A DNA stretch of 56,118 nt, from positions 1 through 56,118 of the forward strand of contig JAOFOL010000011.1 of NCBI GenBank assembly GCA_028042835.1, written 5' to 3'. Positions 50,629 through 56,118 of this stretch are shown one piece after another; the stretch's first letter is position 1, and the number at the start of each line of letters is the position of its first letter. The notes below the pieces were generated by a model, which was not told the DNA's origin, did no database searches, and worked only from the letters and a program-made list of their open reading frames with translations. The position numbers were made by a program, and so were the translations under genes. Origin of the DNA: Opitutales bacterium (GTDB taxonomy: Bacteria > Verrucomicrobiota > Verrucomicrobiia > Opitutales > Seribacteraceae).

Positions 50629-51789
50629 TTATCCGTTGAATAAATCCTCCAGGTCATGAGCAATGGCTAGCGACTTATCGGTAGCACATTTTTCCCGTAC
50701 TCTTTCTGGCCAATAACTCAATGCGATGTGAGCCCAATCAAACTCTCCCTTTTCTAACTTACCCCAGGTTTCCTTTAGCTTTTTTTGCCAAGGCTTCAGC
50801 AAAAAGAGGGTATGTAGAGCAGCCCCAGTTATCAATGCACCATCATTTAAATTTGGTTTCCATGAACGGGCGTGCTTTTGCAACTCCTCTTCAAAATCCT
50901 TAAGCTCATGTTCGAGGTCATTCAATTCTTCGAATCTCTTTGGATCTCTATTTTCATCCGCCCGCAAACTCGCCAAATCCCTTTGCACAGCTTCCAACTT
51001 GGGCTGTACAAAGTCCCCAAGTGCAGAGTAGAGCAATTGATCATCCAGCCGGTGGTAATATATCCAAAGTGTATAACTTCCAGACTTTGTGGAAAGTGGC
51101 CAGTACAGTGGTGCCTGCCTCCGGCTCTTGCTCCATCTTTTTAAATGATTGGCAAAATATTTAGTGGGCGCATTTAAGTAGTCTCGCAGAGACCTCGCCT
51201 TCAATGTCCTGCATGCCTCCTCTTCTATCGCATCCGCATGTTCTCCCCAAATGATGGCCAGAGCATCCCGTACACGGGCTAAAATATCCTCCGTATGGCC
51301 AGCATCATCCACCATGATGCCAGGCCAGGTAATACGCATTGGATAATTATCCGGTACATCTTTTTGCTCGGCTGGTAGACCTTCGGAATTTTGTAACATT
51401 CCTGGCGAGCAAACGGGTAGGGGATCAAATGGATCTGGCTCGGGAGGCTCAGGCTTTTCACCAGTTGCACACCGAATATCCCATCTTCCGAAGGCACAGC
51501 CCACTGCATAATCAATTAACTCCGCCACCAGCTCTGGGCTATCCGTTGGTAGAGTATCTTCCTCATCGCTCCCTTCTTCACCGCCTGATTTATCTCCCAA
51601 CATTGCCTCAATTGCCAGACGGTCTTCCTCTCCGATCTCATATAGCTCATAGGCCAAATCATCGATTTCTCGTTGGATCTCCGCTAGCTTGCTATCTGCA
51701 TCGGAAAGTTTTCCATTCCATACATCTGCCGCTTGCTGGAGTGTGATCACTGGTTCTTCGCTTGGTGAAATTGTGGATGTTTCGTTCAT
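50629..51789 (-). CDS. pglX: Separate gene for the C-terminal region of BREX methyltransferase PglX
   Basis: A 386-residue protein matching the last third of long single-chain PglX. After a coiled coil (SKLAEIQREIDDLAYELYEI), LIDYAVGCAFGRWDIRCATG and DPFDPLPVCSPGMLQ match the family, as do PLYWPLSTKSGSYTLWIYYH and YWPERVREKCATDKSLAIAH near the end. No methyltransferase motif is present. In ordinary PglX this region follows the target-recognition part in the same chain; here it starts with an ATGA overlap on the preceding module. It would have to associate with the core and a middle module to rebuild the enzyme. The identity rests on recalled family sequence, without a search. The coiled coil at its start may be the docking element. 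Confidence 0.75.
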   Translation of the reverse strand: MNETSTISPSEEPVITLQQAADVWNGKLSDADSKLAEIQREIDDLAYELYEIGEEDRLAIEAMLGDKSGGEEGSDEEDTLPTDSPELVAELIDYAVGCAFGRWDIRCATGEKPEPPEPDPFDPLPVCSPGMLQNSEGLPAEQKDVPDNYPMRITWPGIMVDDAGHTEDILARVRDALAIIWGEHADAIEEEACRTLKARSLRDYLNAPTKYFANHLKRWSKSRRQAPLYWPLSTKSGSYTLWIYYHRLDDQLLYSALGDFVQPKLEAVQRDLASLRADENRDPKRFEELNDLEHELKDFEEELQKHARSWKPNLNDGALITGAALHTLFLLKPWQKKLKETWGKLEKGEFDWAHIALSYWPERVREKCATDKSLAIAHDLEDLFNG

Positions 51790-52625
51790 GATGAATGAGT
51801 GGGTAAAGGTTTTGTTCGTCTCGGAGTTAGGGCCGGTGCATAAAAGGCATGACTGGTCTGGTTGGCCGTGTCGGTACTACGCTTTGTGGACCATGCGGAA
51901 TGTGCGAATGTCGATAGATTTGCCGAAGATTTTTCATCAAGAGGAGGAATTACAGTGCGTTGAATGACACCGACTTCATAGGACCGGGCAGCAGCATCGC
52001 CGGCAGCTAATTGCAGTGCAACGAGTGCTTGGAAGGCTTGTGCCTGAATCAATGAAAGAAATGCCCATGCATCCGAATTTCCCATGTCAAAAAAAGCAGC
52101 TGGTCCTTTGTCCGCAAAGACACAGTTTTGCGGCATTATGCGCATAGACATTCCGCTTGTTGTCCTTCTTGGCCAAGTAAGTCCGGGCCGGAAATAAAAA
52201 TCTGCATTTCTGATCACGCTTCCAGTGAAGGTATCCAACTCGGTGCCATCTTTCCCCCAGTTCACGCTTAGGTACACATCAGCATAGAAGGGTGAGTAGC
52301 TACCACCTTTAGCGAAGGGAAACCAAGATTTAATTTGGTAATTACTAGGAGTTTCCCAGGTTGTACGAACAAAACGGAAGTCGTCCCCGCTGGCCAAACC
52401 CTGCTTGGCTGTTCTCTCATCTCCTTCGAATTGTGGCAGTTCAGAAAATAGGTTACGAATCCGCTCACTCACCCAGTACGCAAACGGAGCGTTAGGGACT
52501 TTGCGGAAGGAGGTTGGGTTGACGGAGTAGACATCGGGCGGATTTTCGCCTTCGCACACCTTGGCCACGGCCTGGGCCAGGGGCTCGGCGGGGTCATCGG
52601 AATCAAGTAAGCGAAAACAGATCAT
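51786..52625 (-). CDS. pglX: PglX middle (target-recognition-type) module, copy B
   Basis: A 279-residue protein that aligns from end to end with the preceding 292-residue gene. Shared landmarks are FRKVPNAPFAYWVSERIRNL, the TKQGLA(S/T)xDDFRFVR segment, FAKGGSYSPFYADV, FYFRPGLTWPRRT and a nearly identical C-terminus around STDTANQTSHAFYAPAL. In single-chain PglX this whole stretch lies directly after the methyltransferase motifs and is where target recognition resides. Between the landmarks the two copies differ strongly (GMSMRIMPQNCVFADKGPAA here), as expected for modules reading different DNA sequences. It starts 8 bases after the stop of copy A and overlaps the C-terminal pglX gene by 4 bases. 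It has a methionine start and no internal stop, so it is not debris. Confidence 0.8.
   Translation of the reverse strand: MICFRLLDSDDPAEPLAQAVAKVCEGENPPDVYSVNPTSFRKVPNAPFAYWVSERIRNLFSELPQFEGDERTAKQGLASGDDFRFVRTTWETPSNYQIKSWFPFAKGGSYSPFYADVYLSVNWGKDGTELDTFTGSVIRNADFYFRPGLTWPRRTTSGMSMRIMPQNCVFADKGPAAFFDMGNSDAWAFLSLIQAQAFQALVALQLAAGDAAARSYEVGVIQRTVIPPLDEKSSANLSTFAHSAWSTKRSTDTANQTSHAFYAPALTPRRTKPLPTHSS
51832..51893 (-). repeat. 62-bp near-identical repeat at the end of module B
   Basis: Matches 52686-52747 at 59 of 62 positions, while the genes around it are far more diverged. It encodes the shared C-terminal TANQTSHAFYAP segment of the PglX middle modules. It is long and similar enough to allow homologous recombination between the two modules. 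Confidence 0.9.
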
Positions 52626-52633
52626 GACAGGAA

Positions 52634-53512
52634 TCAGGCAGTGGTCGCTTTCTTGTTTCGAGAGCCAAACTGCCCGGGCGACAACGCCGGTGCATAAAAG
52701 GCATGACTGGTCTGGTTGGCGGTGTCGGTACTGCGCTTTGTAGACCAGGCAGATTTGGCCAACGGCTTTACCGTCATTTCAATCTTGTCAGTAAGTTTGA
52801 AGGGTACTTTACCTACCATACCTGCCATGAATTGCGGATTAGTACCTCCTTCATCCTGTGAGGTGGTCCCGAGAGAAAGTGAGATAAAAGTTTGTGATAT
52901 AGCGGAGAAAAGCACCGCTGCAGTGACAAGTTCCTTTCCAGGATTATAAGCAACTTGGCCACCGTCACTGAATATTGCTCCAGGTGGCATTAATTTGGGG
53001 CAAAATCGCCTTGTTCGTCTAGGCCAAGTTATTCCTGGACGAAAATAGAAATCTGGATTTTTTATTATCCGGGACCAATGTGAGTTGTTGTAAAGAGTAC
53101 CAGCCCAGGACTTTAGCTCTTTGCCATCTTGGCCCCAATTTAATTGTAGAATTATATCAGCGTAAAATGGAGAAAAGCTTCCTCCTTTTACAAAAAGAGA
53201 CCATCTTTTATTAGAGTGATCTTTCGATGTTTCCCAAATAGCTCTAACGAATCTAAAGTCATCAGCAGTTGCTAAACCTTGTTTTGTTGTTCTATTTCCA
53301 CATTCGAAAGGAGCAATTTCTGCGAATATGCTGCGAATATGTTCACTCACCCAATAGGCGAAAGGAGCATTTGGCACTTGTCGAAATGAAGCAGGTTCAA
53401 CTTGGTAAGTCGCCTTGTTGGATCGGCCTTCGGCAAGATCTCGGACTGCTTCGAGCAACGGGCCGGCAGGTTCGTCAGCATAAAGCAAACGGATGGCAGT
53501 AAGCTGGCTCAT
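52634..53512 (-). CDS. pglX: PglX middle (target-recognition-type) module, copy A
   Basis: A 292-residue protein. Its start ATG overlaps the stop of the methyltransferase core (ATGA), and its first residues (LTAIRLLYADEPAGPLLEAV) are what follows the core in ordinary single-chain PglX. FRQVPNAPFAYWVSEHIRSI, TKQGLATADDFRFVRAIWET, FVKGGSFSPFYADI and FYFRPGITWPRRTRR are shared with copy B, as is the C-terminus STDTANQTSHAFYAPAL. The centre (FCPKLMPPGAIFSDGGQVAY and SLSLGTTSQDEGGTNPQFMA) differs from copy B. It probably supplies the DNA-recognition and substrate-positioning half of the enzyme. With the core and C-terminal genes it totals about 1,350 residues, matching a long PglX. Confidence 0.8.
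   Translation of the reverse strand: MSQLTAIRLLYADEPAGPLLEAVRDLAEGRSNKATYQVEPASFRQVPNAPFAYWVSEHIRSIFAEIAPFECGNRTTKQGLATADDFRFVRAIWETSKDHSNKRWSLFVKGGSFSPFYADIILQLNWGQDGKELKSWAGTLYNNSHWSRIIKNPDFYFRPGITWPRRTRRFCPKLMPPGAIFSDGGQVAYNPGKELVTAAVLFSAISQTFISLSLGTTSQDEGGTNPQFMAGMVGKVPFKLTDKIEMTVKPLAKSAWSTKRSTDTANQTSHAFYAPALSPGQFGSRNKKATTA
52686..52747 (-). repeat. 62-bp near-identical repeat at the end of module A
   Basis: Partner of 51832-51893, 854 bases apart in the same orientation. Recombination between them would exchange or delete one module and keep the reading frame at the shared C-terminus. Confidence 0.9.
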
Positions 53513-55521
53513 GCTTGAGCAATTCCTTCCATAGGTTTTTCCAGGACATAGGCAGCGGCCTCCACCATGGCGGCATCCATTACCCCGTGACCAAGGTCAA
53601 CCAATAGGCGAATTTGTAACTTCTTAAGAATTATATGCTCTCGCCACTTTGTGTAGGAAGAAAGGAAGAAGCAGGTGCGCGAGGTGATGGCCCCGAGCTG
53701 GCCACCGGGTACAAGAATTTCTCCCCCGCGGTCGACAAAGGCGGCCAAGATATCGTTGTAGCTATTGGGGTAGACTTTTTTGGACTCTGCTTTGTAGAGC
53801 TTGGACCATTCCCCAAAGGGTGGATTCATGACGATGACATCATATCGTTTGCGGCAAAGATTGATAAAGGAAAATCCTTGGGCGGCATCCTCTGCAAAGA
53901 GTTTTCGCCGGTATTCGCCAGAGGAGTCGCTATCGGAACCTTCGGCATATTTCTCTAAGGCTTTGTAGATGCGTTCTTCGGCTTCGTTAAAAAATCGAGT
54001 ACTAGAAACTCCTGATAAGTCGAATTCACCTTGAGTTGGAATTCCAAGGTCTTCATCAGAAAACATGTCAGATCGTTGGGATTTCCATGCCTGGCGTGCA
54101 CGATCAACCAGGCCGGATATAATCTCGTCGATCTTGAGTAGGGCACCAGCTTCACCGGCAAGTTGCATCTTTTCAAATATGCGTTCTACCATTTGGGCAA
54201 GGGCAGGGTGGAGCTTTGTTGCAAAGGCTTGCAATTGCTCAGGGTCCCCAGGCATGGGCTCGGCACATACGACATTTGATTTAACGATTTCAGGACGTTC
54301 AAGGGCTTTTAGGCCTTGTTCGAGCCAGGCTCGTTGAGCTCGTAGCCAGAGGGCAAGTCCTGCGATCTGGGTAGCACGGTGGTCGATATCTACACCATGG
54401 ATATTATTTTCGATGATGAGTTTGGGGACATCTCGAAGGAGAGTAGATTTTTCGGGATAATCAGCCCGTAGGCTCTCGATTCCGAGATCCCAGGCTTCTT
54501 CGTATATGGTCTGAAAAACATCGAAGGCATAGAGGCCGAAGTGCATAGAGCCACAGGCAGGATCGAGCATGAGGATTTCTCGCGGATCTTTTACTGGGCG
54601 GAATGGTACATGTACGGGCAGGCGAAGGATTTCTTCTTTGGATAAGCCTTCCTCGGATGGTGCTGGCGGGGCAGCCTCTCCTTCCCCGAGAAAATTTTCA
54701 TTGGGCTTGCGTACGAGGTAGCGGCATTTTTCCGATAAGGTAGTATTACCCTGTGTCATTTCGTACCAGGTACGGCCCAGGGTATTATCGGTTAAGAACT
54801 CGACAACATACCGAGGAGTAAAAAACTGATTTCTAATTGCCAGTTCGCGACTGTTGCGCGGAGCAGCAGATTCCTTTTTGATTTTTGAAATTTCTTCCCG
54901 TGTATTCCAGTATTGGTAGATCCAACCAATGGTTTCATCGGCCGCCCATACTTCACGAAGATCCGAACGATTTAAATGAGCTACAAGCTTATTGAGGGCA
55001 ACTTCGCCAGGAAAGAGCATCCCTTGTGGGGAGTATCGGTCGAAGAGGGCACCTAGCTCGATGCTTAGCTCGTCAAAAAGAGAGTAAAGGAAGCAGCGAT
55101 AACGTTCGTAACGTTCACCCAGGACGGAGCCCGTTATTTGATCGTACACGGCAAAACCCTTGGATTGATCCCCCTGGGCAAGAGATTCACGAATAAGTTC
55201 GCGAGATTCAGCCATGCGAATAGCTATGAAGCGATTAAGCAGAGTAAAGGCTTGTTCACGGAGTACTCGGCGAATAGCTACCTCGGACTTGCCGCCTGAT
55301 GCATCAGTGGAGCGTAGGTGCTCAATACGCTGGCGTAAGATGGTGGCAATAGTGAGTTCGGTATCAGTCAAGCTGGTAAGAGTATCGATCTCTGCGATTT
55401 GCCCATCTGCTCGTATACCAAACCGGCCCTCGAGCTGTTCGCCGAATTCTTCCTCAAGGAGTTTCCGGCAATCGTTTACGAGCTGTACAAGTTTGTTGCG
55501 TGTGTTGCTGTCGAAGGCCAT
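53509..55521 (-). CDS. pglX: BREX adenine methyltransferase PglX, catalytic core only
   Basis: A 670-residue N6-adenine methyltransferase core. ATG 55521 is preferred to the upstream TTG 55551 because MAFDSNTRNKLVQLVNDCRK is the usual PglX beginning. LMLDPACGSMHFGLYAFDVF (D320) is the S-adenosylmethionine-binding motif I, and VIVMNPPFGEWSKLYKAESK (N566) is the catalytic NPPF motif IV. LLVDLGHGVMDAAMVEAAAY comes just before the end, the last conserved element of the methyltransferase domain. The chain then stops (EGIAQA), where ordinary PglX continues into the recognition region. That region is supplied by the next two genes. PglX methylates host DNA at a non-palindromic site so that BREX spares it. 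It lies 23 bases after brxC. Confidence 0.92.
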   Translation of the reverse strand: MAFDSNTRNKLVQLVNDCRKLLEEEFGEQLEGRFGIRADGQIAEIDTLTSLTDTELTIATILRQRIEHLRSTDASGGKSEVAIRRVLREQAFTLLNRFIAIRMAESRELIRESLAQGDQSKGFAVYDQITGSVLGERYERYRCFLYSLFDELSIELGALFDRYSPQGMLFPGEVALNKLVAHLNRSDLREVWAADETIGWIYQYWNTREEISKIKKESAAPRNSRELAIRNQFFTPRYVVEFLTDNTLGRTWYEMTQGNTTLSEKCRYLVRKPNENFLGEGEAAPPAPSEEGLSKEEILRLPVHVPFRPVKDPREILMLDPACGSMHFGLYAFDVFQTIYEEAWDLGIESLRADYPEKSTLLRDVPKLIIENNIHGVDIDHRATQIAGLALWLRAQRAWLEQGLKALERPEIVKSNVVCAEPMPGDPEQLQAFATKLHPALAQMVERIFEKMQLAGEAGALLKIDEIISGLVDRARQAWKSQRSDMFSDEDLGIPTQGEFDLSGVSSTRFFNEAEERIYKALEKYAEGSDSDSSGEYRRKLFAEDAAQGFSFINLCRKRYDVIVMNPPFGEWSKLYKAESKKVYPNSYNDILAAFVDRGGEILVPGGQLGAITSRTCFFLSSYTKWREHIILKKLQIRLLVDLGHGVMDAAMVEAAAYVLEKPMEGIAQA

Positions 55522-55544
55522 GGGTTCGGTCAGTAAGGGGTTAT

Positions 55545-56118
55545 TTACCAATTAACATTTACGGGAAGGTTCTCTTTGAGAGTTTCCAGTTTTTTCACGA
55601 GCTCATCGATCTGTTCTTTGGTTTCAATCCGGCGAGGAGCTTGAATGTTTTGAGTAGCTTTGTCTTCTTTAACTTCTAGTTCACGCTTGTTGGCCAACTC
55701 CTGGGTCTTGTTGTTGATCTCAAATAATTTACTAGTTAGCTCATGGTCGTTTCTTACTATATTCTTCAATCCTTCCAGGCCAGTTCCAGAACTTATCTGA
55801 ATGGATTGTACGGATTTGGTAACTTGGTCGTGTTCTTCTTCGGAGAGTTTTCCCCAAGATGGCCCTTTTTGGATGGTTTCGGAAAGGAAAGTAACTCGAG
55901 TACTTTCTTGTTTTTCCAAAAGATCTTTATTGGCAGAGTCGATATGAGTTTTTAATTCGTCTGCTGTCTTAACTAATTTTTCTCGTTCTTCGGTGAAATC
56001 CTCCTGCTGGAGGATACTATCTGCATTTTTTACCAGTTCATTTAATTCAAGTTGAACTTGAACAAGGGGGCCAGTTGAAGGAAGGGATTCAGCCAAGGAC
56101 TGGGTTTCTCGAATCTCT
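55545..56118 (-). CDS. brxC: C-terminal fragment of BREX ATPase BrxC (runs off the window)
   Basis: An open frame enters from the right edge and stops at TAA 55545-55547, giving about 190 residues without a beginning. The TTG at 56094-56096 encodes an internal Leu, because the frame stays open to the edge (EIRETQSLAESLP). The fragment is strongly helical and charged (LKTHIDSANKDLLEKQESTR and KELANKREL-like repeats), as expected for the coiled-coil end of the large AAA+ protein BrxC. The name rests on position: in type 1 BREX, brxC lies directly upstream of pglX. The ATPase motifs are outside the window. Confidence 0.7.
   Translation of the reverse strand, partial: EIRETQSLAESLPSTGPLVQVQLELNELVKNADSILQQEDFTEEREKLVKTADELKTHIDSANKDLLEKQESTRVTFLSETIQKGPSWGKLSEEEHDQVTKSVQSIQISSGTGLEGLKNIVRNDHELTSKLFEINNKTQELANKRELEVKEDKATQNIQAPRRIETKEQIDELVKKLETLKENLPVNVNW

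Follow-up and report, generated by a model that had tools for sequence, protein, structure and literature searches.

The window, by which we mean the whole stretch of DNA analyzed, is a complete contig of 56,118 bases from a MAG that is 63% complete. Its right end carries what appears to be a type 1 BREX antiphage locus on the minus strand, in which the end of brxC is followed by four pglX genes, pglZ, and brxL (Table 1). The contig stops inside brxC, and a search of the MAG revealed no BrxC match besides the fragment at the contig end. The pglZ and brxL genes fitted their PADLOC models nearly over the full length. The ORF of the pglX core can be read from a TTG codon (53509–55551, 680 aa) or from an in-frame ATG at 55521, which is the likelier start and coincides with the limit of the interval given in the preliminary description. 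The core contained the DPACGS and NPPF motifs (SAM-binding and catalytic) and matched the Eco57I methylase domain. An ATGA overlap joined the core to module A, and another one joined module B to the C subunit; A and B were separated by an 8-nt gap. Internal stops were absent from all four pglX ORFs. Both the ORF list and the junction sequences agree with the preliminary description of this DNA, which had reported four open frames with ATGA or few-base junctions. A search of the MAG detected no further modules besides A and B.

Table 1. Genes and repeats of the BREX locus at the right end of the window.
Feature	Position	Strand	Description or match
brxC, C-terminal end only, cut by contig end	55545..56117	-	PDLC02483 positions 1003–1199
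pglX core, 670 aa from ATG 55521	53509..55521	-	N-terminal helical domain and methyltransferase domain; PDLC02527 1–661 (E 5e-260)
Module A, separate TRD subunit, 292 aa	52634..53512	-	PDLC02527 668–934 (E 8e-50); solved PglX 649–840
Direct repeat, 77-nt, copy at the C-terminal edge of A	52686..52762	-	88% identical to the other copy
Module B, second TRD subunit, 279 aa	51786..52625	-	PDLC02527 667–933 (E 9e-50); solved BrxX 647–796
Direct repeat, 77-nt, copy at the C-terminal edge of B	51832..51908	-	88% identical to the copy in A
C subunit, PglX helical spacer and C-terminal domain, 386 aa	50629..51789	-	PDLC02527 936–1291 (E 9e-107)
pglZ, 847 aa	48074..50617	-	PDLC02561 1–839 of 840
brxL, 693 aa	45990..48071	-	PDLC02508 1–694 of 698; BrxL_N, BrxL_ATPase

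The four pglX products were compared with PDLC02527, the PADLOC model of one-chain PglX with 1332 positions (Table 1). The core, the modules, and the C subunit fell in the same order on the NCBIfam model BREX_1_MTaseX, and A and B aligned to one common stretch of solved PglX/BrxX. In the alignment to the single-chain enzyme, neither A nor B matched another part of PglX. It had been claimed earlier that A and B cover the same stretch after the core and that the fourth gene corresponds to the C-terminal third of PglX, and these comparisons bear out both statements. Matches of A and B were of the PglX type only (PADLOC, NCBIfam), with nothing in Pfam at E 0.1. The locus is similar to the one-chain PglX/BrxX of type 1 BREX from E. 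coli and Salmonella (PDB 9ewz, 8c45) in domain order, core motifs, and C-terminal fold, and the modules and the C subunit are homologous to the TRD and the C-terminal domain of solved PglX. However, PglX/BrxX is described as a single polypeptide with the TRD being a part of the methylase (PMC12707154, partial text), and each monomer of solved PglX contains a single TRD (PMC11341690 and PMC11842806, partial texts), whereas three kinds of chain are encoded here by four ORFs, with two TRD genes among them. The four-gene pglX is a variant of PglX and not the standard PglX.

In E. coli BrxX, the NTD comprises residues 1–210, the MTD 211–650, the TRD 651–837, and the CTD 838–1205 (PMC11842806, partial text). 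The match of the core on this protein stopped at residue 609, approximately 40 residues before the MTD/TRD border (650/651), so that the last MTD stretch is also part of the modules. Residue 38 of B aligned with BrxX residue 647, the module profile ended at 864, and the C profile started at 896. According to these alignments, each module runs from the last MTD stretch through the hinge and the TRD into the beginning of the CTD. The core had been described as stopping just after its last methyltransferase element; this needs correction, as the last stretch of the MTD sits in the modules. We infer that both ends of a module are docking tabs, one for the core and one for the C subunit. The C subunit alone was predicted to fold independently (pLDDT 90.5), and when this fold was searched against the PDB, the six hits that reached E 0.001 were all BrxX/PglX chains, the best of them at E 7e-9. 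For A, no usable fold prediction was obtained (pLDDT 53.9). A natural three-part PglX would offer cut points for studying the docking of the core, the TRD, and the C part.

A search for the same gene order in other genomes revealed the same four pglX genes in an Akkermansiaceae MAG of Verrucomicrobia (locus L036, contig JABDRB010000003.1). Two other genome entries, G460 and G695, point to the same places as L036; the listed completeness of G695 is 98%. In L036, the core has 706 aa, module 1 has 301 aa (279 aa if started at ATG 8590), module 2 has 280 aa, and the C subunit has 422 aa; the BREX locus also contains brxA, brxB, brxC, pglZ, and brxL. The identity between the window and L036 was 60% for the core and 53% for C. 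Thus, the four-gene PglX with separate, doubled TRD subunits is a real, rare, and recurrent variant. The low completeness of the MAG gave some ground to suspect that assembly or sequencing frameshifts had broken a single long pglX. This is extremely improbable: one module cannot yield two by frameshift, start and stop codons overlap cleanly, and L036 has the same joints in a different sequence. Given the recurrence of the layout in L036, we rejected such an error as the origin of the four genes.

Between the two loci, synonymous change in the core, B, and C was saturated, and nonsynonymous change was far lower. Together with the nearly end-to-end matches of pglZ and brxL, this makes it very unlikely that the locus is decaying and that the split of pglX means loss of function, although the contig breaks off within brxC and truncated pglX pairs have been reported and read as interruption, with attribution to reference 56 of the reporting article (PMC9716671, partial text). 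Genes annotated as "interrupted" pglX deserve a second look, since they may encode split enzymes that work. That reference 56 is presumably Goldfarb 2015, in which irregular pglX genes were reportedly found. In the second four-gene locus, an FRG-domain gene and two other genes were located between the C subunit and pglZ (L164 1444–4024); the two genes beside the FRG-domain gene had no Pfam match at E 0.001.

The architecture of PglX was determined in 92 loci, comprising the best 80 of 354 core relatives in genome contigs and 12 viral loci. Six viral loci from another search fell on contigs already represented among the viral ones and were treated as part of these. The enzyme was one-chain in 51 loci, two-gene (core plus fused module and C part) in 27, and four-gene in one (L036); the remaining 13 were cut by contig ends, broken, or odd. 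The preliminary statement that PglX is normally a single chain holds for the 51 loci, but the 27 two-gene loci show that it is not universal. In 24 of these 27, i.e., in 24 of the 92 loci, the break coincided with the first joint of the window, between the core and the recognition half, and in 8 of the 24 the two were separated by more than 1 kb. The two-gene form is fitted by PADLOC PglX models of 640 (PDLC02526) and 682 (PDLC02532) positions. It shares the first joint with the window; however, its TRD and C part are fused and single, whereas in the window a further cut divides the second half and there are two TRD genes. The other three two-gene loci (L059, L073, and L106) were broken at another place, and these breaks may be frameshifts or insertions. 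On the core tree, which included the window and 91 of the 92 loci (one was dropped for its short core), the two-gene label required 16 changes, so PglX splits have been gained or lost many times. The window core grouped with L036 and the one-chain Roseibacillus enzyme L078 (SH-aLRT 97). It was found in none of 26 genomes of the same genus and in none of 15 genomes of the same family.

Various genes were located between the halves of two-gene PglX. An OLD-family AAA/TOPRIM gene was present in three loci (L112 8390–10240, L052 8423–10222, and L093 8570–10270), a PIN-domain gene in L094, a cytosine methylase gene in L076, and a TumE-like gene in L045, and the gene tested from L095 had no Pfam match. 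On a closed Thioflavicoccus plasmid, two genes sit between the core and the second half. This plasmid was the one inspected for tandem genes among the 40 listed of 211 plasmid records and 6 phage records. L112 and L114 are two BREX copies with identical cores and the same layout on one contig of Tepidimonas fonticaldi (NZ_VJOO01000006.1). In the odd locus L110 (6501–13336), the core was followed by a shortened TRD gene of 234 aa and then by a second core gene. On contig C19 of G1378 (181700–186240), a TRD lies in a 708-aa frame and, 3 kb further, another one in a 1304-aa frame; the two may represent a two-gene PglX adjacent to a one-chain PglX.

Module matches were obtained in 23 of 384, 25 of 288, 9 of 267, and 13 of 265 sampled genomes; these sets overlap, and the best 6 to 9 first-look candidates were scored per genome. 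No tandem stand-alone modules other than those of the window and L036 occurred among these matches, nor in 16 other genomes reached by locus. A separate scan of 387 genomes (15 with a match), in which two candidates were scored per genome, missed A itself and is uninformative on pairs. TRD pieces in short or broken frames in G048 and G295 were left out of the counts. The split between core and recognition half alone is common; the separate, doubled recognition gene was seen, among the searched sets, only in the window and in the genome of L036. In the parts of the literature covered by a search on split or multi-gene PglX, a separate TRD gene was nowhere described. In PMC12839542, the section on BrxX describes it as one protein, and the words "split" and "fragment" are absent.

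The identity between A and B was 47%. B and L036 module 1 were 65% identical, the remaining module pairs 41–53%, and A was the module least identical to the rest. Close to their ends, A and B shared a 68-nt block with 93% identity, with five differences, all synonymous (codons judged by eye); in L036, the first 61 bp of the modules were 90% alike, and 54 bp near the end were 89% alike. The 5′ edges of A and B were unlike, with the same codon at 3 of 11 conserved residues (14 of 19 in the L036 modules). In a four-module test, the body paired B with L036 module 1 (10 amino-acid sites against 0 and 1 for the alternatives; 37 DNA sites against 23 and 25), whereas the C edge paired the modules within each locus (5 amino-acid sites against 0 and 0; 11 DNA sites against 2 and 0). 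The permutation p for this conflict was 0.0005. The N edge had no informative amino-acid sites, and its DNA sites followed the within-locus pairing (6 against 1 and 1). Clustering of codon likeness was reached by 0 of 20,000 permutations for A/B; p was 0.0007 in the L036 pair, compared to 0.88 when B was paired with L036 module 1. Since the cross-locus pair of A and L036 module 2 also clustered (p 0.0068), the edge signal may partly reflect constraint acting on a conserved segment. At the C edge of the window, codon likeness alone was weak (p 0.068), the edge windows having been picked by eye. Judging from these patterns, module edges seem to follow the locus and bodies do not, as if recognition bodies had been exchanged between fixed docking edges. 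Two processes would each produce this pattern: recombination at the edges, and co-adaptation of the modules with the C subunit of their own locus.

One of the two modules could also be an unused spare, either a relic or a store of sequence that recombines via the similar C-terminal edges. The 77-nt direct repeat at the module ends, the conflict between body and edge sites, and the position of A as the least identical module point in this direction. We consider this unlikely, as both modules are intact and coupled or closely spaced, the pair is kept in two genomes, and nonsynonymous change is low against saturated synonymous change. The latter was true for all six gene pairs tested. Conserved TRD positions, defined as those shared by 18 or more of 20 other modules, were retained at 41 of 46 in A and 42 of 46 in B. 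On the module tree, in which few branches were well supported (15 of 77 starred), A and B had, apart from one another and L036 module 1, modules of two-gene loci from other phyla as their nearest neighbors, and L036 module 2 was nearest to the one-chain module L107.

We propose that PglX of this locus is a non-covalent three-part enzyme, in which the catalytic core probably associates with a single TRD subunit and with a C-terminal subunit for DNA binding or docking. A and B would be translated from one gene run and compete for a single docking place on the core and C, giving two enzyme species per cell and two specificities, in the way of alternative HsdS subunits. This explanation, with its assembly, joint expression, and double specificity, is reasonably likely. 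In its favor are the coverage of one-chain PglX by the four ORFs, their recurrence in L036, the two-gene loci broken at the first joint, the predicted fold of C alone, and the retention of conserved TRD positions in A and B; against it count the restriction of the layout to two loci among those searched and the presence of a one-chain enzyme, L078, among the closest kin of the core. The preliminary description assumed the use of A or B; the better reading is that both are made from one transcript and compete. Joint production is preferred because both modules are intact and in line and the inverted repeats are short and imperfect. An invertible switch was rejected: only seven inverted-repeat pairs were found, 16–23 nt long, imperfect, and 74–88% complementary. 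For the broader view of a BREX system with its own exchangeable specificity subunits, arranged as tandem TRD cassettes with fixed docking edges and providing two or more specificities per cell, the chances are about even. If it is true, new BREX specificities could be gained by swapping a short gene and not the whole pglX.

In type I RM systems, alternative HsdS specificity subunits act on a shared methylase. The window may be likened to them, by analogy, in the exchangeable specificity subunit and the like edges at exchange points, and A and B are likewise encoded apart from the core. However, HsdS has two TRDs per chain, and the modules of the window match PglX models instead. No HsdR-like match was found among the seven proteins from brxC to brxL (PADLOC, Pfam, NCBIfam). 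Type IIB BcgI-like enzymes also have a methylase with a separate S chain, but their nuclease is fused to the methylase and they are not BREX. The two TRDs of HsdS and the tandem module pairs in the window and L036 would agree with joint action of A and B, in which the core, both modules, and C recognize one longer or bipartite site or form a dimeric enzyme. Such joint action is improbable: both modules match one and the same stretch of PglX, where the solved enzyme has a single TRD per monomer, and one TRD per core is the rule in the 51 one-chain and 27 two-gene loci of the 92.

The methylation mark of PglX/BrxX is placed on a single strand of a 6-bp motif. In E. coli BrxX, R751, K681, and N823 contact G1, G2, and A4, respectively, D684 and Q784 contact the other strand, and the MTD loop 587–601 reads the sixth pair; G785 was altered together with N823 in a published variant of relaxed specificity (PMC11842806, partial text). 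At the places of R751, K681, N823, D684, and Q784, the by-eye alignment, which is a distant one, had K/R, Q/Q, Q/S, A/A, and D/D in A/B and R/E, V/L, S/S, Q/G, and D/D in L036 modules 1/2. A and B differed at two of these five aligned base-contact positions (K/R and Q/S), and at the place of G785 the same distant alignment had G in A and K in B. A and B could, on these residues, read closely related sites. The equivalent of the loop 587–601 sits in the core, and the contact differences lie in the modules; hence, the methylated A (position 5) and the last base would be common to both predicted 6-bp 6mA motifs, and the differences would fall among the first four bases. With a three-part PglX, it becomes testable whether one BREX system can carry two self-marks simultaneously.

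The region of the window beside BREX (25447–45952) contained defense-type genes and had a G+C content of 38–39%, compared to 48% for positions 1–25000. It encodes a 2531-aa protein with weak TmtA matches, a DrmD-like helicase, a PLD-helicase type IV restriction-like protein, a Schlafen-group-3 helicase, a MazG-like protein, and an Mrr-helicase.
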